Shown here piece by piece: positions 4,514-38,623 of a stretch of 40,794 bases of DNA (position 1 is the stretch's first letter; every line of letters begins with the position of its first letter). The stretch is from Candidatus Omnitrophota bacterium. GTDB lineage: Bacteria; Omnitrophota; Gorgyraeia; Gygaellales; Profunditerraquicolaceae. A program made the translations under genes and the position numbers. A model generated the notes under the pieces. The model had not been told where the DNA came from, searched no databases, and saw only the letters and a program-made list of their open reading frames with translations. The DNA lies in NCBI GenBank assembly GCA_026387315.1, contig JAPLLY010000001.1:1-40794 (forward strand). Direction: 5' to 3'.

Positions 4514-4621
4514 GACGTTTGCCTGCCGGCAGGGTTCTATTTTTCTAAAGAATCACGGGGACGGTTCTCTTAAAAAAGAGAACCGTCCCCTAGTTTTTCG
4601 AAGTAAAATAGAACCGTCCCT
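4514..4621. repeat. GGGGACGGTTCT palindromic repeat (REP-like family P1), nested
   Basis: A perfect hairpin GGGGACGGTTCTCTT / AAGAGAACCGTCCCC occupies 4557-4590 and a further half-site AATAGAACCGTCCC ends near 4620. To the left, GAGGACG...GGTTCTATTTTT appears to be a half-site interrupted by a palindrome containing CCTGCCGGCAGG (4522-4533). The cluster occupies the whole gap between secDF and the truncated mfd, only about 10 bases before the mfd start. Confidence 0.8.
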
Positions 4622-4631
4622 ATGATTTTAT

Positions 4632-8431: not shown

Positions 8432-9201
8432 GCCAGAATTTTCTTATCGATAAAAATATTCAAAAGAAAATAATTCGCGCTTGCAATTTATCTAAAGAAG
8501 ATATTGTTTTGGAGATTGGGGCCGGCAGGGGGGATTTAACGGCGCCGCTTGCTGGAAGCGCGAAGAAAGTTTACGCATTAGAGATTGACCAGCGCCTCTA
8601 TCCGCTTCTTGAACTGGCTTTAGGTGTTTATAGTAATTGTGAGATTATTAAGAGTGATATATTAAAATTCAATATAAACAAATTTTTACAAGATAATAAG
8701 ATAAGGCAGAAAATAAAAGTAATTGGCAATATTCCTTATTATATTTCCAGCCCGATTATCGAACATCTTATCGGGTATCGTCAAGCAATCAGCGCGGCTT
8801 TTATAACCGTACAAAAAGAGTTTGGCCGCAGGGCCAGGGCTGTCCCGGGATCAAAAGAATATGGGTCTTTTAGTTGTTTTGCGCAGTATTACTGCGAATG
8901 TGAGATTCTTTTTGAGATTAAAAAAAATAGTTTTAAACCCGCGCCGAATGTTGACTCATGTTTTTTATGCCTGAAGTTTAGAGAAAAGCCACTGGTATTA
9001 GTTCAGGATGAAGGGATGTTTTTTAAATTAATCCGTACCGCCTTTAATCAAAGAAGGAAGACCTTGAGGAATAGCCTGGATGGTTTGGTGGCCCAAGATA
9101 GGCTGGAAAATTATCTTCAGAGGGCTGGTATTGATGAGAATGTACGTCCAGAGGGTCTTTCTTTAGAGCAATTTGCTGACTTGAGTAATTACCTAAAATA
9201 A
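8404..9201 (+). CDS. rsmA: 16S rRNA (adenine1518/1519-N6)-dimethyltransferase RsmA/KsgA
   Basis: Dimethylates two adjacent adenines in the 3' terminal hairpin of 16S rRNA late in 30S assembly; its loss classically gives kasugamycin resistance. The 265 residues carry KSLGQNFLID, the SAM-binding EIGAGRGDLT, catalytic NIPYYISS (109-115) and FKPAPNVDS. The ATG lies within the pdxA 3' end, so the two are translationally coupled. A GGGGACGGTTCT repeat follows the stop codon at once, and a separate promoter for the tRNA/ribosomal cluster lies beyond it, so this is probably the last gene of its operon. Confidence 0.97.
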   Translation: MYIKPKKSLGQNFLIDKNIQKKIIRACNLSKEDIVLEIGAGRGDLTAPLAGSAKKVYALEIDQRLYPLLELALGVYSNCEIIKSDILKFNINKFLQDNKIRQKIKVIGNIPYYISSPIIEHLIGYRQAISAAFITVQKEFGRRARAVPGSKEYGSFSCFAQYYCECEILFEIKKNSFKPAPNVDSCFLCLKFREKPLVLVQDEGMFFKLIRTAFNQRRKTLRNSLDGLVAQDRLENYLQRAGIDENVRPEGLSLEQFADLSNYLK

Positions 9202-9202
9202 A

Positions 9203-9275
9203 GGGGACGGTTCTGTTTTTCCCGAAAAACAAGGGGACGGTTCTGTTTTTTATATATAAAAACAGAACCGTCCCC
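9203..9275. repeat. GGGGACGGTTCT palindromic repeat after rsmA (family P1)
   Basis: One half-site (9203-9220) is followed by a full hairpin, GGGGACGGTTCTGTTTTT (9233-9250) against AAAAACAGAACCGTCCCC (9258-9275), an 18-bp stem with a short AT loop. It starts just after the rsmA stop and ends before the next promoter. The stem could act as an RNA 3' end protector or terminator, but there is no T-run on its 3' side. Confidence 0.8.
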
Positions 9276-9312
9276 TAGATTCTAAAAAAGACAACAAAAG
9301 TTAAAAAATACC

Positions 9313-9549: not shown

Positions 9550-9699
9550 ATGCGTGAAACAATAACTTTAGAATGCACGGTTTGTAAAAATAGAAATTAT
9601 ACGACGACCAAAAATAAAAAGTTGCATCAGGATAGGCTGGAGCTTAGTAAGTTCTGTAATTCCTGTTACAAGCATACCCCGCATAAAGAGATTAAATGA
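9550..9699 (+). CDS. rpmG: 50S ribosomal protein L33, zinc-binding type
   Basis: A 49-residue large-subunit protein located near the E site. It begins [17 protein letters not shown] and holds two CxxC knuckles (C9/C12 and C36/C39), the zinc-containing form. The ATG is only 12 nt after tRNA-Thr and tRNA-Trp begins 21 nt after the stop, so the mRNA has to be cut from between two tRNAs. The stretch before the ATG (TACTAAAAAAAT) has no Shine-Dalgarno, so translation may rely on a near-leaderless 5' end after tRNA 3' processing (inference). Confidence 0.95.
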
Positions 9700-9959: not shown

Positions 9960-10223
9960 GTGGATTTTATATTTGGAAATTCCAAAACAATAATTTTAGT
10001 CGCAATTGCAGTTGTGGTATTGGTTTTGGTAATCACGAATTACCAGAAGATACGAGGTTTTTTATTAGAAGTAAAGTTAGAATTAAGCAAGGTTTCCTGG
10101 TCAACGCGAAAAGAATTGTTGGCTTCTACGGTTTTAGTCATTACGGTTACAGGAATTTTGACAGTTTTTATTGGGATAGTGGATCTGGGTTTATCCAGGT
10201 TTCTAAGCGTGGTTTTTAAATGA
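9960..10223 (+). CDS. secE: Preprotein translocase subunit SecE
   Basis: Essential clamp subunit of SecYEG. The 87-residue product starts at a GTG after AAGAAAG and has two hydrophobic segments: an N-terminal one (about 9-26, IILVAIAVVVLVLVI) and the conserved C-terminal helix (about 58-83). Between them is the amphipathic SecE signature EVKLELSKVSWSTRKEL. Many bacterial SecE have a single helix, so the extra N-terminal one is worth noting. It lies upstream of nusG, as nearly always. Confidence 0.93.
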   Translation: MDFIFGNSKTIILVAIAVVVLVLVITNYQKIRGFLLEVKLELSKVSWSTRKELLASTVLVITVTGILTVFIGIVDLGLSRFLSVVFK

Positions 10224-10228
10224 AAATC

Positions 10229-10332
10229 CAGGGGACGGTTATATTTTTTCAGAAAAACAAGGGGACGGTTCTATTTTTTATATATAAAAAATAGAACCGT
10301 CCCCTGGATTCTAATGAAAATAGAACCGTCTA
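10229..10332. repeat. GGGGACGGTTCT palindromic repeat between secE and nusG (family P1)
   Basis: A half-site at 10231-10247, a full hairpin at 10261-10303 (GGGGACGGTTCTATTTTTT against its complement across TATATA), and a reverse half-site ATAGAACCGTC ending near 10330. It occupies most of the secE-nusG gap. Confidence 0.8.
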
Positions 10333-20549: not shown

Positions 20550-20930
20550 ATGCCCACAATTTCTCAGTTAATCAGATTCGGCAGGATTTCCAAGAAAAAG
20601 AAAAGTAAGTCTCCGGCTTTAAAAGCTTGCCCTCAGAGAAGAGGTGTATGCCTCCAGGTGCGTACGATGACACCTAAAAAACCAAACTCAGCTTTGAGAA
20701 AAATTGCCAGGGTCAGGTTGACTACGGGTTTAGAAGTTACGGCTTATATTCCCGGAGAGGGGCATAATCTTCAGGAACACTCAATTGTTTTAGTCAGGGG
20801 TGGCAGGGTTAAAGATTTGCCGGGTGTGCGTTATCATATTGTGAGAGGCTCATTAGATGCTTCAGGGGTTAATGCCCGTAGAAGAAGCCGTTCTAAATAT
20901 GGAGCTAAAAGGCCAAAGGAAGGGAAATAA
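20550..20930 (+). CDS. rpsL: 30S ribosomal protein S12
   Basis: Decoding-centre protein. The 126-residue product carries the two universally conserved loops: [11 protein letters not shown] and [12 protein letters not shown], with lysines at the positions that give streptomycin sensitivity. Short spacing from rpoC continues the rpoBC-str operon. A GGGGACGGTTCT repeat separates it from rpsG. Confidence 0.98.
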
Positions 20931-20939
20931 TAAGAATCA

Positions 20940-21014
20940 TGGGGACGGTTCTATTTTTCCCGAAAAACAAGGGGACGGTTCTGTTTTTTCTAAAAGAAAA
21001 ACAGAACCGTCCCC
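20940..21014. repeat. GGGGACGGTTCT palindromic repeat between rpsL and rpsG (family P1)
   Basis: Half-site 20941-20957 plus a full hairpin 20971-21014 (GGGGACGGTTCTGTTTTT against AAAAACAGAACCGTCCCC). The repeat starts within about 10 nt of the rpsL stop and is followed by a clean GGGAG Shine-Dalgarno for rpsG. Confidence 0.8.
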
Positions 21015-21049
21015 TGGATTCTAAAGTTAAATAAAGGGAGTGTCGAAAG

Positions 21050-24930: not shown

Positions 24931-24933
24931 TAG

Positions 24934-25111
24934 ATGAACCCCGCACCTTCTGGATATTCAAGGTATAATTAAATAAGGTGCGGAGACAGAGAATAATAAA
25001 GGGTTTAAAGAATTAAATAAGGAGAAGGTGCAAAAGGGGTGAACCCCGCACCTTCTTACCATTCAAGTATTAAAGAATTATAGTTTAAATAAAAGGAGAA
25101 GGTGCGGGGTG
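24934..25111 (+). promoter_or_regulatory. Tandem palindromic leader of rpsJ (family P2) with two micro-ORFs
   Basis: Two copies of the element in tandem. Copy 1 has 5' arm CCCCGCACCTTC (24939-24950) with partial 3' arms AAGGTGCGG (24975-24983) and GAAGGTGC-aaaa-GGGGT. Copy 2 has a perfect 14-nt pair: ACCCCGCACCTTCT (25043-25056) and AGAAGGTGCGGGGT (25097-25110). The second arm contains the SD-like AAGGTG and GT of the rpsJ GTG start. Each 5' arm lies in a short ORF: ATG at 24934 encodes MNPAPSGYSRYN, GTG at 25039 encodes [14 protein letters not shown]. Confidence 0.65.
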
Positions 25112-25414
25112 AATACGCAAAAGATTCGGATTAAATTAAAAGCCTATGATCACCGGTTACTAGATCAGGCAGTAATTGAAATTGTGGAAACCGTTAAGCG
25201 CACCGGGGCCAAGATTTCCGGCCCCGTACCGCTTCCCACAAAAAGGGAAATTTACACGGTATTACGTTCTCCGCATGTTGATAAAAAATCGCGGGAACAG
25301 TTTGATTTATCTACCCATAAGCGCCTTATTGACATCTTTGAACCTACAGCTAAGACCATCGATTCATTAAGGAAATTAAACCTGCCCGCGGGAGTGGACG
25401 TAGAGATCAAGTAA
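25109..25414 (+). CDS. rpsJ: 30S ribosomal protein S10
   Basis: 30S head protein and, with NusB, part of antitermination complexes. 101 residues with [43 protein letters not shown] (split over residues 39-65) and a C-terminal PAGVDVEIK. The GTG start lies inside the 3' arm of a perfect inverted repeat. First gene of the S10 cluster, next to tuf as in many bacteria. Confidence 0.98.
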
Positions 25415-26987: not shown

Positions 26988-27078
26988 CGAGCGATAGCGA
27001 AGCTAAGTTGTTTGGCCGAACTTATCCCGCACCAATTGAAGCGCAGCTTAAAGCTAAATATACAATTGGTGCGGGATT
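26975..27078 (+). promoter_or_regulatory. Composite palindromic element upstream of rplB (family P5, copy 1)
   Basis: Module 1 is a hairpin: GGCCA-CAACTTAGC (26975-26988) with GCTAAGTTG-tt-TGGCC (27002-27017). Module 2 starts CGAACTTATCCC and forms CCCGCACCAATTG...CAATTGGTGCGGG with an AGCTTAAAGCT core. A second copy precedes rpsK (38519-38623); module 2 is nearly identical there while module 1 differs by compensatory pairs. The rest of the gap (27079-27134) has no Shine-Dalgarno that I can point to with confidence. Confidence 0.7.
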
Positions 27079-27134
27079 AATTCGCGCATTAATTTACTCA
27101 CACTGCGTGTTCGTAAGTTAAGCGCTCATTAAAG

Positions 27135-28593: not shown

Positions 28594-28600
28594 AGTAATG

Positions 28601-28733
28601 TTCCCCCTCGCGGGAGCTCGGGGTCATTTTTCCCCAAGCGCCGGAGGCAGGGGAAAAACTCTCCCCCTCGCGGGAGCTCGGGGTCATTTTTCCCCAAGCG
28701 CCGGAGGCAGGGGAAAAATGAGGAGCATAATTT
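28601..28733. repeat. Tandem 60-bp P3 repeats upstream of rpsC, ending in an SD
   Basis: Two nearly identical units with a 60-bp period (starting 28602 and 28662), each CCCCCTCGCGGGAGCTCGGG followed by a TTTTTCCCC...GGGGAAAAA hairpin. After the second unit comes TGAGGAGC, the Shine-Dalgarno of rpsC. The layout copies that in front of yajC (1773-1838), including the GAGGAG. Confidence 0.8.
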
Positions 28734-29456: not shown

Positions 29457-29873
29457 ATGGCTTTAATGCCTAAAAGGGTTAAATATCGTAAATTGCAGAA
29501 AGGCCAGAGGCGCGGGATAGCCACTAGCGGCTCAACTGTTTCTTTTGGAGAATTTGGTTTAAAATGTTTGGAGAACGGATGGATTAAAAACACGCAGATT
29601 GAAGCTGTGCGCGTTATTTTAGCGCGCCAACTGCATAAGGGTGGAAAATTATGGATCAGAATTTTCCCGGATAAATCGATAACCAAGAAACCGGCTGAAG
29701 TACGTATGGGTAAAGGTAAGGGGGATCTTGATCATTGGGTTTGCGTAATCAAAAGAGGGCGTGTGCTTTTTGAATTAGGGGGAGTTCCCCAGGAATATGC
29801 CAAGGCCTGTTTTCGTCTGGCAGCCTATAAAATACCGCTGCGCACTAAATTTGTAACCCGGGTGCATAAATAA
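29457..29873 (+). CDS. rplP: 50S ribosomal protein L16
   Basis: Contacts A-site tRNA and is needed for peptidyl transfer. 138 residues beginning [20 protein letters not shown], with [18 protein letters not shown]. It is separated from rpmC by a P2 palindromic leader that starts two nt after its stop. Confidence 0.98.
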
Positions 29874-29874
29874 G

Positions 29875-30005
29875 ATGAACCCCGCACCTTCTAATTATTC
29901 ATCATTTTTTAAAACATAAATATTTAAAGGCATGAGTATAAGCAGAATACTGAATCCCGCACCTTTAATAAGGTGCGGGATGAATACGAAAGAAGGTGCG
30001 GGGTG
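29875..30005 (+). promoter_or_regulatory. Nested palindromic leader of rpmC (family P2) with a micro-ORF
   Basis: Outer perfect 14-nt arms ACCCCGCACCTTCT (29879-29892) and AGAAGGTGCGGGGT (29991-30004); the second runs into the rpmC GTG at 30003. Nested inside is ATCCCGCACCTT-taat-AAGGTGCGGGAT (29954-29981). Inner and outer arms can exchange partners. The 5' arm is in a micro-ORF, ATG at 29875, [14 protein letters not shown]. Confidence 0.65.
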
Positions 30006-30263
30006 AAGCCGCTTGAGCTAAGAAATTTATCTAAAGATGAGTTGTTAGAGAAAGAAAAAGGGCTGTATGCTGAATTAGCCAAGTTAAATACACAGCGTTA
30101 TACTGGTAGTGTAGAGAAGCCGCATAAGTTCGCGCTGGTCAAAAGGGATATCGCGCGGATTAGGACAATCTTAAACCCCGTTAGAGGCAGGACGCCAGAG
30201 GCGTCCGACGGTTGCCTTCGGCAACCTGCCTCTAACGGGGTAAACCAAAAGAAAGATAAATAA
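30003..30263 (+). CDS. rpmC: 50S ribosomal protein L29 with repeat-derived C-terminal tail
   Basis: Tunnel-exit protein near L23. The GTG at 30003 gives MKPLELRNLSKDELLEKEKG, the normal L29 N-terminus; an upstream in-frame GTG at 29973 lies in the palindrome and adds unconserved residues. L29 homology ends at ARIRTIL (about residue 57), close to the usual 60-70 residues. The remaining 29 residues (NPVRGRTPEASDGCLRQPAS then NGVNQKKDK) come from a three-way-junction palindrome (30175-30241). The total is 86 residues. Confidence 0.93.
   Translation: MKPLELRNLSKDELLEKEKGLYAELAKLNTQRYTGSVEKPHKFALVKRDIARIRTILNPVRGRTPEASDGCLRQPASNGVNQKKDK
30175..30241. repeat. Three-way-junction palindrome inside the rpmC 3' end (family P6)
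   Basis: Outer arms ACCCCGTTAGAGGCAGG (30175-30191) and CCTGCCTCTAACGGGGT (30225-30241) are perfect 17-nt complements. Inside are two 7-bp hairpins: GGACGCC-aga-GGCGTCC (30190-30206) and GGTTGCC-ttc-GGCAACC (30210-30226). The stop codon lies after it, so the repeat is translated. Confidence 0.8.
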
Positions 30264-31794: not shown

Positions 31795-31980
31795 ATGGCC
31801 AAGAATTCGCAGATTGCAAGATGGAAGAGGGCGCCGAAGTTTTCTACCCGCAAATATAACCGTTGTTCAATTTGCGGCAGAAGCGGGGGGTATTTAAGAA
31901 GATTTCAACTTTGTCGTATTTGTTTTAGGGAGCTGGTTTGGCAGGGGCTTATCCCTGGCGTTAAGAAGGCCAGCTGGTGA
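31795..31980 (+). CDS. rpsN: 30S ribosomal protein S14, zinc-binding (type Z)
   Basis: 30S head protein. 61 residues with [20 protein letters not shown], the four-cysteine zinc site of the short type, and end [11 protein letters not shown]. The upstream rplE gene ends three nt before. A repeat follows the stop. Confidence 0.98.
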
Positions 31981-31986
31981 AAATAA

Positions 31987-32085
31987 CGGGGACGGTTCTA
32001 TTTTTCCCCGGGTTTAATTCTAGAAAAACAGAACCGTCCCCTTGTTTTTCGGCTTCGATTCGCTGAATCAATGGCGGATTCATTA
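31987..32085. repeat. GGGGACGGTTCT repeat and ATTC hairpins upstream of rpsH (family P1 plus other)
   Basis: GGGGACGGTTCTATTTTT (31988-32005) and AAAAACAGAACCGTCCCC (32024-32041) form a hairpin with one mismatch. Then GATTC-gct-GAATC and TGAATC...GATTCA are overlapping small stems (about 32055-32083) that cannot form at the same time. CTGAATCAATGGCGG here is the complement of CCGCCATTGATTCAG at 39676-39690 before rpoA. AGGAG follows for rpsH. Confidence 0.7.
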
Positions 32086-33147: not shown

Positions 33148-33168
33148 TGGGTCGCGAGATTTTAAGAA

Positions 33169-33183
33169 AGAAGGTGCGGGGTG
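33169..33183 (+). promoter_or_regulatory. Solo P2 3' arm acting as ribosome-binding site and start of rplR
   Basis: AGAAGGTGCGGGGT (33169-33182) is identical to the P2 3' arm at rpsJ, rpmC and rplO and runs into the GTG start, but no matching ACCCCGCACCTTCT arm occurs anywhere in the rplF-rplR gap. This is the only copy of the start cassette here without a local partner. Confidence 0.65.
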
Positions 33184-33540
33184 AGAAAAAAGGAAGAGTT
33201 AAGGCTAAAGAGGCATAAAAGAATAAAGATGAGGATGCTGGGCACTCAAGAGAAGCCGCGCTTGGTTGTGCACCGCTCCTTAAAGAATATTTCGGCGCAG
33301 GTATTAGATGACACCGTGGGCAAAGTTTTATTTTCTCTTTCTACTAAAGATAAGGCAATAAAGCAAAAGTTTACCAGCGCGGGAAATCTTAAATCAGCGG
33401 TACTTTTTGGTGAATTATTCGCTAAAGAAGCCAAGGAAAAAGGTGTAAGCAAAATAATTTTTGACCGAGCGGGATATCTTTACCACGGCAGGATTAAATC
33501 TTTTGCCGAGGCATTAAGAAAAGGTGGAATGGAGTTTTAA
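33181..33540 (+). CDS. rplR: 50S ribosomal protein L18
   Basis: Binds 5S rRNA with L5 in the central protuberance. 119 residues with GTQEKPRLVVHRSLKNISAQ, and ending DRAGYLYHGRIKSFAEALRK. The GTG start forms the end of the AGAAGGTGCGGG cassette. Confidence 0.97.
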   Translation: MRKKEELRLKRHKRIKMRMLGTQEKPRLVVHRSLKNISAQVLDDTVGKVLFSLSTKDKAIKQKFTSAGNLKSAVLFGELFAKEAKEKGVSKIIFDRAGYLYHGRIKSFAEALRKGGMEF

Positions 33541-33556: not shown

Positions 33557-34009
33557 ATGCGTGAATTAAACATTGGGCAGCAATCAGATTTAATTGAAAA
33601 AGTTATCAGTATAAATCGCGTTACCAAGGTAACTAAGGGCGGGAAGAAATTACACTTTAGCGCTTTGGTGGTTGTCGGTGATACTCGGGGCAGGGTAGGT
33701 TTTGCCCTGGATAAAGCTAATGAAGTTGCTGAAGCTATTCGTAAATCTTTAACTAAGGCCAAGAAAAGCCTGTTTAAGATTCCTTTGGAGGGCTCGACTA
33801 TTCCTCACGAAATAATCGGTAAATTTGGAGCGGCGCAGGTTTTGCTTAAGCCGGCAAGCGAAGGTACGGGCGTTATCGCGGCAGGCCCGGTGCGCGCAAT
33901 CTGTGAAGCCGCCGGGATTAAAGATATACTTACTAAATGTTTAAAATCAAATAATCCGATTAACGTGATTAAGGCTACGATGCAGGGCCTAATGAATCTT
34001 AAGGCATAA
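33557..34009 (+). CDS. rpsE: 30S ribosomal protein S5
   Basis: mRNA-entry protein important for fidelity. 150 residues (E. coli 166; the N-terminus is shorter here). [33 protein letters not shown] and the spectinomycin-loop region are visible. ATG follows TTGGAGG. Its stop codon TAA overlaps the first base of the P2 palindrome before rplO. rpmD (L30), usually next, is missing. Confidence 0.97.
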
Positions 34010-34087
34010 CCCCGCACCTTCTTGGTATTCATAGATTAAGAAGCGTGGGGGTTAAATAATAGTAAATAAGGAAGAAGGTGCGGGGTG
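34009..34087 (+). promoter_or_regulatory. Palindromic leader of rplO (family P2), spanning stop to start
   Basis: Perfect 15-nt arms: ACCCCGCACCTTCTT (34009-34023) and AAGAAGGTGCGGGGT (34072-34086). The first base of the 5' arm is the last base of the rpsE stop codon and the last two bases of the 3' arm are GT of the rplO GTG start. The element fills the whole gap. The frame of the 5' arm reads NPAPSWYS then stop, but lacks a start codon here. Confidence 0.7.
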
Positions 34088-34693
34088 GAAGAGAAGAAAC
34101 CTAAAATAAAACACAAAGCCAAAGAATCCTTAATCAGGAAGGTTTCCGCCGCAGGTGGATCCGCCTCCGGCGGAAAAAAACCAGCAGCTAAGAAGGGTAT
34201 TAAAAGGGCAGCCTATAAGCGGATTCAGGAGAAAATTCCGGTAAGTTTGGTTTCTTTGCATAATCTTAAATCGCCATTTGGTTCGCGTAAGAAAAGAAAA
34301 CTCTTGGGCCGCGGTTCCAGTTCCGGGCATGGTAAGACTTCTACCCGGGGAAGTAAGGGGCAGACCTCCCGTGCCGGCCGGCATTTTTATTTAGGTTTTG
34401 AAGGAGGACAGTCTCCGCTGATCCGTAGAATGCCCAAGCGCGGATTTGTAAGTAATTTTAAGAAAGTTTATCAGATTGTCAATCTTGGCGATCTGAATTC
34501 AATTAAAGAAACTACTATTACTCCTCTTCTTTTAAAAGCAAATGGATTAATCCGTGATCAGTCTGCCTTAATTAAAATATTGGGAAATGGTTCGATTAAG
34601 AACGCGGTGGTTATTCAGGCGCACGCGTTTTCAAAACGCGCGTCTGTGGGAATTGCCAGTGCCGGCGGAAAAGTAGAGATTATTCAGACATAG
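34085..34693 (+). CDS. rplO: 50S ribosomal protein L15 with N-terminal extension
   Basis: Large-subunit assembly protein. Classic L15 homology begins at SLHNLKSPFGSRKKRKLLGR (about residue 56), where L15 usually starts at residue 1-2, and continues through GHGKTSTRGSKGQ and RRMPKRGF. Some 55 basic residues precede it, partly encoded by a palindrome (34143-34176, KVSAAGGSASGGKK). The GTG start is in the P2 cassette. No strong alternative start with a Shine-Dalgarno is seen closer to the L15 core. Total 202 residues. Confidence 0.93.
   Translation: MEEKKPKIKHKAKESLIRKVSAAGGSASGGKKPAAKKGIKRAAYKRIQEKIPVSLVSLHNLKSPFGSRKKRKLLGRGSSSGHGKTSTRGSKGQTSRAGRHFYLGFEGGQSPLIRRMPKRGFVSNFKKVYQIVNLGDLNSIKETTITPLLLKANGLIRDQSALIKILGNGSIKNAVVIQAHAFSKRASVGIASAGGKVEIIQT
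34143..34176. repeat. Palindrome inside the rplO 5' coding region
   Basis: TTTCCGCCGCAGGTGG (34143-34158) and CCGCCTCCGGCGGAAA (34161-34176) pair with one mismatch and one G-T wobble around a central GGATCC. It is translated as part of the atypical L15 extension (SAAGGSASGG). Confidence 0.65.
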
Positions 34694-34720: not shown

Positions 34721-34782
34721 GTACTTTTCTTTAAAAAAGTACTGCGTAAGCTCGGGATAAATTCGCCCCGCCAACGGCGGGG
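34721..34782 (+). promoter_or_regulatory. Hairpin pair upstream of secY
   Basis: GTACTTTT/AAAAGTAC (34721-34742) and CCCCGCC-aac-GGCGGGG (34766-34782) precede the secY ATG at 34791. Between them is GGGATAAATTCG (34754-34765), the reverse complement, with one mismatch, of the CGAACTTATCCC linker found before rplB, rpsK and rpoA. No good Shine-Dalgarno is apparent besides GGCGGGG in the stem. Confidence 0.5.
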
Positions 34783-34790
34783 CTCATTTA

Positions 34791-36790: not shown

Positions 36791-37461
36791 ATGATTCCCC
36801 TGAAGTCGCCAAAAGATTTAATAATGCTTAAGCGCTCAGGAGTAATTTTGGCTTCTGTTATGCAAAAATTGCAAGCTAGCCTGCGGCCAGGAATGACCAC
36901 TCTGGAGATTGATCTTTTGAGTGAAGAGTTAATTCGCAAGGAGAAGGCGTTGGCAGCTTTTAAGGGCTATAAAGGTTTTCCGGGGACAGTTTGTGTTTCC
37001 GTAAACGAAGAGATTGTTCATGGTATCCCCGGTTCAAGAGTAATTTTAGAAGGGGATATCGTAAGCCTGGCTTTAGGTATAAATTACGAGGGTTTTTTTT
37101 CGGATATGGCAGTGACTTTACCGGTGGGTAAAGTAGAAGCCGATAGATTAAAGTTAATTGCCGCAGCCAAGCAGTCTTTAGATATCGGAATTAAACAGGC
37201 GCAAGTTGGAAATTATTTAACTGATATTTCTCATAGCATTCAAAGTTTTGTAGAGGCAGAGGGTTTTTCAGTAGTCCGGCAGTTTGTGGGGCATGGTATT
37301 GGAACGGCGCTATTGAGCCAATGATTAATCTTGGTAGTTGGGAGTGCAAGATTATTGAAAATAACTGGACAGCGGTGACGGCGGATGGCTCACCCTCAGC
37401 GCATTTTGAACACACGGTAGCGGTCACGGATAAGGGGCCGGTAATTTTGACTAAGGTATAG
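36791..37461 (+). pseudogene. map: Methionine aminopeptidase, frameshifted and missing an active-site segment
   Basis: Type I MetAP removes the initiator methionine. The first frame (to 37324, 177 residues) matches well up to GHGIG (H168), then stops after TALLSQ. The C-terminal part continues in another frame from 37309: [32 protein letters not shown], stop at 37461. About 26 residues normally between GHGIG and IEPM are missing, with loss of frame. Separately, the first metal-ligand Asp (E. coli D97) is Ala94 in GDIVSLALG. D105 and H77 remain. Two independent lesions suggest real decay, though an assembly error cannot be excluded for the frameshift. Confidence 0.85.
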
Positions 37462-37786: not shown

Positions 37787-37799
37787 AATGGAAAATAAA

Positions 37800-37873
37800 G
37801 GGGACGGTTCTGTTTTTTATATATAAAAAACAGAACCGTCCCCTGGATTCTAAAGAAAAACAGAACCGTCCCC
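37800..37873. repeat. GGGGACGGTTCT palindromic repeat after infA (family P1)
   Basis: Full hairpin 37800-37842 (GGGGACGGTTCTGTTTTTT against its complement across TATATA) and an extra reverse half-site ACAGAACCGTCCCC (37860-37873). The segment CTGGATTCTAA following each 3' arm also occurs after copies at 10305 and 21015, so it belongs to the repeat. Confidence 0.8.
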
Positions 37874-37885
37874 TGGATTCTAAGA

Positions 37886-37977
37886 AAGAAGGTGCCGGGT
37901 GAACCCCGCACCTTCCAATTATTCAACTATTAAAGTCTTATGGTTTAAATGAATTAATAACAGGAAGGTGCGGGATG
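37886..37977 (+). promoter_or_regulatory. Palindromic leader of rpmJ (family P2) with a micro-ORF
   Basis: 5' arm CCCGCACCTTCC (37905-37916) and 3' arm GGAAGGTGCGGG (37963-37974) are perfect complements; the rpmJ ATG follows immediately. A preceding degenerate 3' arm AGAAGGTGCCGGGTG (37887-37901) provides the SD and GTG of a micro-ORF at 37899, [17 protein letters not shown], stop at 37950-37952. Confidence 0.65.
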
Positions 37978-38088
37978 AAGGTTAAAGCTTCGATACGTAA
38001 AATTTGCGATAAATGTAAAATAATAAAAAGAAGAGGGGTGGTGCGGGTTATTTGCGCCACCGCTAAACATAAACAGAGGCAAGGATAA
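37975..38088 (+). CDS. rpmJ: 50S ribosomal protein L36, zinc-binding type
   Basis: Smallest ribosomal protein. 37 residues, [20 protein letters not shown] then [18 protein letters not shown]11, C14, C27 and H32 make the zinc site. ATG directly after GGAAGGTGCGGG. Position between infA and rpsM is canonical. Confidence 0.96.
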
Positions 38089-38106: not shown

Positions 38107-38514
38107 ATGCCCAGAATTATCGGTGTGGATATACCTAAAGAGAAAAGAATTGAGATTGCGCTTACTTATTTATATGGGATAGGCCGAGCCCTTTCTAATG
38201 TTGTACTTAAAGAGGCCGGGATTAACCCGGATAAGCGGGCCAAAGATCTAAGCGAAGAAGAAGTTTCGCGGATTACTCAAATCCTGCAAAAAGGGCCTTT
38301 GAGGGTTGAAGGTGACCTGCGGCGGGATATATCTCAAAATATCAAGCGTCTGATGGACATCGGTTCCTGGAGAGGGATGCGGCATAAAAAAGGCCTGCCG
38401 GTCAGAGGGCAGCGCACACGCACAAACGCGCGCACCAGAAAAGGAAAGAAGAGGACTAATCAGGCGCCAATCAAAAAAGCGGAGCCTTCAAAAGCTAAGG
38501 CTCCGGCAAAATAA
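38107..38514 (+). CDS. rpsM: 30S ribosomal protein S13 with basic tail
   Basis: 30S head protein that bridges to 50S and contacts tRNA. 135 residues: [40 protein letters not shown], then a Lys/Ala/Pro-rich tail of about 20 residues, part of it encoded by a palindrome (38480-38505). E. coli S13 is 118. Preceded by CAGGAG. Confidence 0.97.
38480..38505. repeat. Hairpin in the 3' coding end of rpsM
   Basis: CGGAGCCTT (38480-38488) and AAGGCTCCG (38497-38505) form a 9-bp stem with an 8-nt loop inside the codons for the non-conserved S13 tail. There is no T-run after it. Confidence 0.6.
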
Positions 38515-38518
38515 GTGA

Positions 38519-38623
38519 GGGCATAATTTACGGAGTGCGAAGCACGACGTAAGTTATCTGCCCGAACTTATCCCGCACCAATTGAAGCATAGCTTAAAGC
38601 TAAAGATACAATTGGCGCGGGAT
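38519..38623 (+). promoter_or_regulatory. Composite palindromic element upstream of rpsK (family P5, copy 2)
   Basis: Module 1: GGGCA-TAATTTACG (38519-38532) pairs with CGTAAGTTA-tc-TGCCC (38548-38563), capped by GTGC-gaa-GCAC. Module 2: CGAACTTATCCCGCACCAAT onward, nearly identical over about 60 nt to the copy before rplB, including AGCTTAAAGCT. AGTGGAG before the rpsK start could serve as Shine-Dalgarno. Confidence 0.7.

Follow-up and report, generated by a model that had tools for sequence, protein, structure and literature searches.

The window analysed here is the whole stretch of 40,794 nucleotides, contig C13 of a 1.8 Mb source genome of Omnitrophota, and it contains, in front of the ribosomal protein genes rpsK and rplB, two composite hairpins whose stems differ in sequence yet remain paired. 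The question raised by this locus is whether such a structure acts as an RNA signal of the ribosomal protein operon or represents a dispersed DNA element. The element is one member of a family of mobile palindromic repeats not described before, and it is not a regulator of the ribosomal operon.

In the gap between rpsM and rpsK (Pfam S13 and S11), a 59-nt hairpin (module 1) is followed by a 52-nt palindrome (module 2). The gap between rplW and rplB (L23 and L2) contains the same two modules and then a third one, which is missing from the rpsK copy. The features are as follows:

38512-38570, forward strand: module 1 of the rpsK copy (E 3e-23), folding in the order outer 5-bp stem, GA/GA loop, GGGCA/TGCCC, TC bulge, 9-bp stem, GA/GA loop and apical stem
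38512-38516 with 38566-38570: outer stem of this module, TAAGT with ACTTA, with GA inside each arm; the 5' arm starts with the rpsM stop codon TAA (38512-38514)
38519-38523 with 38559-38563: its inner stem, GGGCA with TGCCC
38524-38532 with 38548-38556: its 9-bp stem, TAATTTACG with CGTAAGTTA, the TC bulge lying 3' of CGTAAGTTA
Between TAATTTACG and CGTAAGTTA: its apical part, GA-GTGCGAAGCAC-GA
38571-38622, forward strand: module 2 palindrome of the rpsK copy, TCCCGCACCAATTG...CAATTGGCGCGGGA, common to the four composites of the source genome
26968-27024, forward strand: module 1 of the rplB copy (E 2e-26), from which rplW (L23) takes its final codons and its stop
27025-27076, forward strand: palindromic module 2 at rplB
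27077-27132, reverse strand: module 3 of the rplB copy, module 1 inverted, TTAATTCGCGC...GCGCTCATTAA, ending 2 nt 5' of the rplB start (E 1e-8)
34758-34790, reverse strand: short hairpin relative immediately upstream of secY, with an outer stem, a TC/TC loop and a GCCCC stem; a weak match (E 3e-5)
38510-38517, forward strand: left copy of the direct repeat AATAAGTG, including the rpsM (S13) stop TAA
38625-38632, forward strand: right copy of AATAAGTG, running into the rpsK SD (GTGGAG)

Module 1 of the rplB copy has the same layout as that of rpsK, with GGCCA/TGGCC, CAACTTAGC/GCTAAGTTG and a TT bulge at the equivalent place. The original prediction, that these stems differ between the copies and still pair around a 2-nt bulge, is borne out, as both hairpins fold with z of about -5 to -7.5 (-5.2 and -6.9 as single-stranded DNA, -7.4 and -7.6 as RNA, each equalled by 0/200 shuffles). 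The second stem is likewise paired in both copies, with 8 of the 9 pairs Watson-Crick and one T.G in the rpsK copy. The outer 5-bp stem, the GA/GA internal loops and module 3 at rplB (27077-27132) had been missed.

Module 2, described as near-identical, shows 92% identity between the rpsK and rplB copies, and it is fixed within the source genome only. Across the four composites of this genome the identity is 87-92% for module 2, 62-82% for module 1 and 86-93% for module 3. In other genomes the hairpin adjoining module 1 is quite different in sequence from species to species. The proposed arrangement of a variable recognition stem beside a fixed module is thus reversed: across Omnitrophota, module 1 is conserved and module 2 is species-specific. 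The constants of module 1 throughout the phylum are the GA/GA loops, the side of the bulge and the AACTTA core. The conserved unit consists of: (i) an outer 5-bp stem, overlapping the host stop codon or adjoining the SD; (ii) a GA/GA internal loop; (iii) a stem of 4-5 bp; (iv) a bulge of 1-2 nt; (v) an AACTTA-type stem, usually with a second GA loop. The whole element is a mosaic of hairpin 1, a spacer palindrome and an optional inverted hairpin. Inverted dimers with a spacer are found in the rplB copy and at loci L003, L004 and L114, and many copies are single. In genomes G018 and G002, the second hairpins of two elements flanking rpmG (L396, L393) resemble each other more than their orthologues elsewhere, a similarity suggesting that recent copying or concerted change may have taken place.

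Four copies were used to build a covariance model of module 1, which detects 12 copies in the source genome (E<=0.01) and matches in 29/39 genomes of the order, with a maximum of 47 copies in one; the stretches around the matches were used for examining the copies. A strict sequence pattern, fixing only the innermost stem, the ATGA foot and the closing GA, occurs in 138/384 Omnitrophota genomes of several classes. The reversed pattern, serving as a control, occurs in 0/384 of these genomes, and the strict pattern in 0/40 genomes of other phyla. Among 2.9 million viral contigs a single match has been obtained; its inner stem is unpaired, and it is taken as chance. A search of Rfam with the window and the copies returned only tRNAs, plus two sub-threshold chance matches outside the element, and no description of such repeats in Omnitrophota was found in the literature searched. 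As in REP/BIME families, the hairpin is imperfect, present in many copies and mostly extragenic. The hairpin before rpsK and rplB is probably a non-autonomous, dispersed palindromic DNA repeat of REP/BIME-like character, specific to Omnitrophota as far as tested.

Covariation of the stems has been evaluated in three sets of copies. In the first, comprising 91 copies anchored on the AACTTA/TAAGTT core and found with a structure model, hence biased towards pairing, the outer stem is perfect in 72/91 (at most 26 in 2000 partner shuffles) and the 4-bp inner stem in 70/91 (at most 23). The second set, 105 copies from 39 genomes, was collected by a pattern search in which pairing of the tested stem was not demanded. 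Here 380/420 inner-stem pairs form, against a shuffled mean of 220 and a maximum of 251; the 4-bp arms, of which 27 distinct 5' versions exist, match perfectly in 83/105 copies (at most 17 in 5000 shuffles), and the pair adjoining the AACTTA stem forms in 101/105 (at most 65 shuffled). In the third set, position 2 of the outer stem, the most variable one, is paired in 121/128 copies against 48 expected. The shuffles ignore relatedness among copies, while the effect is very large and covers 39 genomes and a wide variety of arm types.

At one orthologous site, downstream of rpmG, compensatory differences between species can be seen as well: the outer stem alternates as TAAGT/ACTTA and TAAAT/ATTTA, the inner stem as AGACA/TGTCT, GGCCA/TGGCC and GGCTA/TAGCC, and a further stem as AATTT/AAATT and AGCTT/AAGCT. 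These pairs were compared arm by arm, as MAFFT misplaced a gap for the purpose of pair counting. The covariation in further copies, far beyond chance, strongly supports a maintained structure with compensatory changes. Departures from pairing in module 1, which would have spoken against it, concern about 8-9% of base pairs and the loss of module 1 in genomes G009 and G021, a minority.

The irregularities of the stem are conserved as well. When 51 hairpins were selected by their stems alone, with the loops unconstrained, the outer internal loop was GA/GA in 24 and TC/TC, its other strand, in 21 (45/51 together), the bulge was always on the 3' side of the GA strand, and the apical loop was mostly GA/GA or GA/AA. 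This bears on the possibility that the structure is under no selection at all and that its arms remain complementary through template switching, in which a quasi-palindrome has one arm rewritten from the other. Palindromes readily undergo correction of this kind, and the hairpin deletions in G009 and G021 agree with it, but the same process would also mend the GA/GA loops and the bulge, features that about 90% of copies retain, so this origin of the pairing is very improbable. Because quasi-palindrome correction would erase them, the GA/GA mismatches and the bulge are probably recognised. By analogy, the E. coli TnpAREP requires the bulge of its REP, and repair of the bulge abolishes activity (PMC8266576).

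Whether the structure is maintained in RNA or in DNA has been approached through orientation and placement. An mRNA structure located between cistrons and selected as RNA for its control of translation, mRNA stability or processing in ribosomal and other operons would agree with the compensatory changes, the stable RNA folds, the location of copies inside operons starting at the stop codon, and the presence of paired copies at one site in nine species. In codirectional gaps, however, the GA strand lies in the sense of transcription in 19 copies and in reverse in 23 (a crude count based on simple ORF calls). With equal orientations, half of the mRNAs would carry GA/GA and half UC/UC of the same strictly conserved loop, and this balance argues against a reading of the conserved GA motif at the mRNA level. 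The rpsK and rplB copies are, moreover, not conserved in close relatives, and the element has no match in Rfam. The orthologous positions and single orientation of a ribosomal-protein leader or other cis-regulatory RNA are not observed, and a role as an mRNA element is considered unlikely. Of the two forms of structure originally proposed, selected RNA or DNA cruciform, the former is disfavoured; copies in both orientations, together with the occupied, empty and decayed states of the gaps, favour a DNA-level element. GA-sense copies have their outer foot over the stop codon, and reverse copies have it next to the SD. Purifying selection would suffice to explain this sharp placement, because gene gaps in the empty state measure only about 10-25 nt. 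Some copies may have gained a function, as nine species retain a copy at one site.

The dispersed DNA repeat is further characterised by its presence and absence at orthologous gaps. The rplW-rplB copy is missing from the three nearest genomes having that gap. In G006 and G016 the gap is empty (CAAAAAATAGAGGTAGTTTAAGATG) and L23 ends in GQKIEVV*, as opposed to GQKISEATT* in the source genome, where the insertion replaced the C-terminus; the sister genome G009 has different hairpins at this place. The rpsM-rpsK gap is empty in five genus members (G001, G004, G007, G011 and G014), is occupied by an unrelated hairpin in G006 and G016, and in the distant L114 carries a full composite of independent origin. 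In G009 it lacks the element and the usual TAA stop is lost; this gap may be a deletion product and not the original empty site. The gap between rpmG and tRNA-Trp is full in nine species of the genus, empty in five, and has lost module 1 in G009 and G021, with the second hairpin kept. The window itself carries a related sequence, which is the probable footprint of a lost copy:

9693-9699, forward strand: TAAATGA 3' of rpmG, followed by the same right flank as in G009

In the gaps after tRNA-Thr and rpmG (L383 in G009, L387 in G021), module 1 has been cleanly deleted in three cases while the second hairpin (TAAGTGACTTATCCC...) stays; this is repeated loss of the hairpin near equal points. On a nusG tree, in which several nodes are weak, occupied and empty genomes are intermingled. 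Since the same gaps are occupied, empty or decayed across this tree, the elements come and go.

The rplB copy and L114 are each bounded by modules in inverted orientation, and AATAAGTG is repeated on either side of the rpsK copy; these features could point to a MITE moved by a DDE transposase, whose terminal inverted repeats would be modules 1 and 3 and whose insertion would duplicate a short target. The statistics of the duplications are weak: p is about 0.03 against shuffles for the exact 8-nt repeat at rpsK, and about 0.03-0.06 for AAATTAA(A) at three rpmG copies. The other copies tested show none, and no duplication is clean or consistent. Most copies consist of a single hairpin, no transposase lies between the paired matches in the one pair examined (L188), and simple TIRs would not be expected to show covariation or conserved mismatches, all of which makes a MITE quite unlikely. 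The same pair, inverted matches 1.46 kb apart, was considered by eye as an autonomous version and rejected: it encloses only a short DNA methyltransferase-like ORF and a PilT-type ATPase. An integron attC site was likewise rejected by eye, as the flank misfits RYYYAAC.

Rickettsia palindromic elements, ERIC and BOX are likewise palindromic and modular and lie in intergenic regions or at gene ends, a likeness drawn by description. Closest by behaviour to the REP-like repeat described here are REP dimers (BIMEs), which are likewise found beside gene ends, may contribute a stop codon and enclose a structured spacer (PMC3733652). Both are short imperfect hairpins in gene gaps, often immediately 3' of a stop codon, which they may themselves provide, with inverted pairs around structured spacers and a conserved stem mismatch or bulge. 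In both, a dedicated transposase may be missing, as in CGTC-type REPs, in contrast to GTAG REPs, which need a linked RAYT (PMC3733652). The Omnitrophota element differs from REPs in several respects: (i) the foot, located inside the outer stem, is ATGA or GTGA (RTGA), the GTAG or CGTC tag being absent there; (ii) the hairpin is longer and three-stemmed, with two GA/GA loops and a bulge; (iii) the outer stem pairs with the host flank; (iv) the copies do not adjoin Y1 transposase genes and are so far found only in Omnitrophota.

The mobilising enzyme was sought among Y1_Tnp genes, of which eight are present in the source genome and 59 more in relatives. No significant model match lies within about 1.5 kb of these 67 loci (214 kb, 27 genomes), the best being a weak one of 14.8 bits (E 0.03) at L011, and Y1_Tnp itself has no match in G025 and several other copy-rich genomes. 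The element has not been filed as a GTAG or CGTC REP because neither the tag nor RAYT linkage was found. As a positive control, the GGGACGGTTC family flanks a transposase gene on both sides at L144, L146, L147 and L354. The AGGGGACGGTTCT repeats resemble the rpsK/rplB family in being inverted palindromic repeats of the same genomes and the same type of gap, and differ from it in flanking RAYT-type genes on both sides at these loci.

IS200/IS605 ends and TnpAREP substrates (PMC8266576) are similar to the element in being folded single-stranded DNA with stem irregularities and in the interaction of a short flank sequence with an internal one. In the Omnitrophota hairpins the host flank pairs continuously with the internal arm of the outer stem, on the 3' side of the hairpin, whereas known guides are situated 5' of it, and a linked Y1 transposase is absent (67 loci). 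TAA(AT) is already present in the empty sites of extant relatives. The resemblance to IS200/IS605 guide-target pairing is a lead, not a finding. If the inner arm were a guide, the insertion site of a single-stranded DNA repeat would be found by a predicted enzyme through pairing with host sequence, typically a stop codon or an SD edge, with GA/GA separating guide and hairpin and the guide changing with its target throughout the phylum; such guiding is judged improbable.

For the REP-like DNA repeat, the following sequence of events may be proposed. The GA strand would fold when single-stranded, on the lagging-strand template or in a cruciform, and the fold would be read by an ssDNA-processing enzyme, with the GA/GA loops, the bulge and the RTGA foot as putative recognition features. 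The enzyme would insert copies at a TAA-like sequence, and selection would remove all insertions except those that fall downstream of a stop codon and ahead of the next SD or tRNA end. The copies would then persist with compensatory changes or decay through hairpin deletion, and any effect on mRNA would be secondary.

The family brings a deep, uncultured phylum into the known range of REP-like repeats, and its architecture is very distinct. Its folded shape, kept across many genera, provides a large natural alignment for studying selection on single-stranded DNA hairpins, and the covariation of the outer stem with host sequence, including stop codons, poses a testable question on site choice. 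For annotators, hairpins in the ribosomal-protein operons of Omnitrophota genomes should be regarded mostly as insertions and not as leader regulators. The search for the mobilising enzyme is now possible with a defined substrate.

Other repeats have been identified in the window. The second family (AGGGGACGGTTCT..AGAACCGTCCCCT) is located at 4528-4630, 9195-9285, 10219-10320, 20929-21024, 31980-32051 and 37792-37883, with 16 GGGACGGTTC-type matches in the window, and occurs close to two Y1 transposase genes of the source genome (L009, L010); its GGGGACGG is one base from the GGGGWSAS motif of TIR-flanked transposases (PMC3733652). The third family (CCCGCACCTTC..GAAGGTGCGGG) lies in gaps of the ribosomal-protein operon at 24932-25112, 29873-30006, 33158-33184, 34003-34088 and 37897-37986. 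The fourth, a hairpin family (TCATTTTTCCCCAAGCGCCGGAGGCTGGGGAAAAATGA) positioned directly 5' of the SD, is present at 1772-1843 and 28600-28731 and at loci L063, L064 and L034, and in two close relatives, G006 and G016, it fills the gap between rpsM and rpsK. The methionine aminopeptidase gene (map, 36791-37440) appears to be disrupted, through an internal deletion or a frameshift: its ORF stops at 37324, and the sequence for the C-terminal part runs on in a different frame as far as about 37460.
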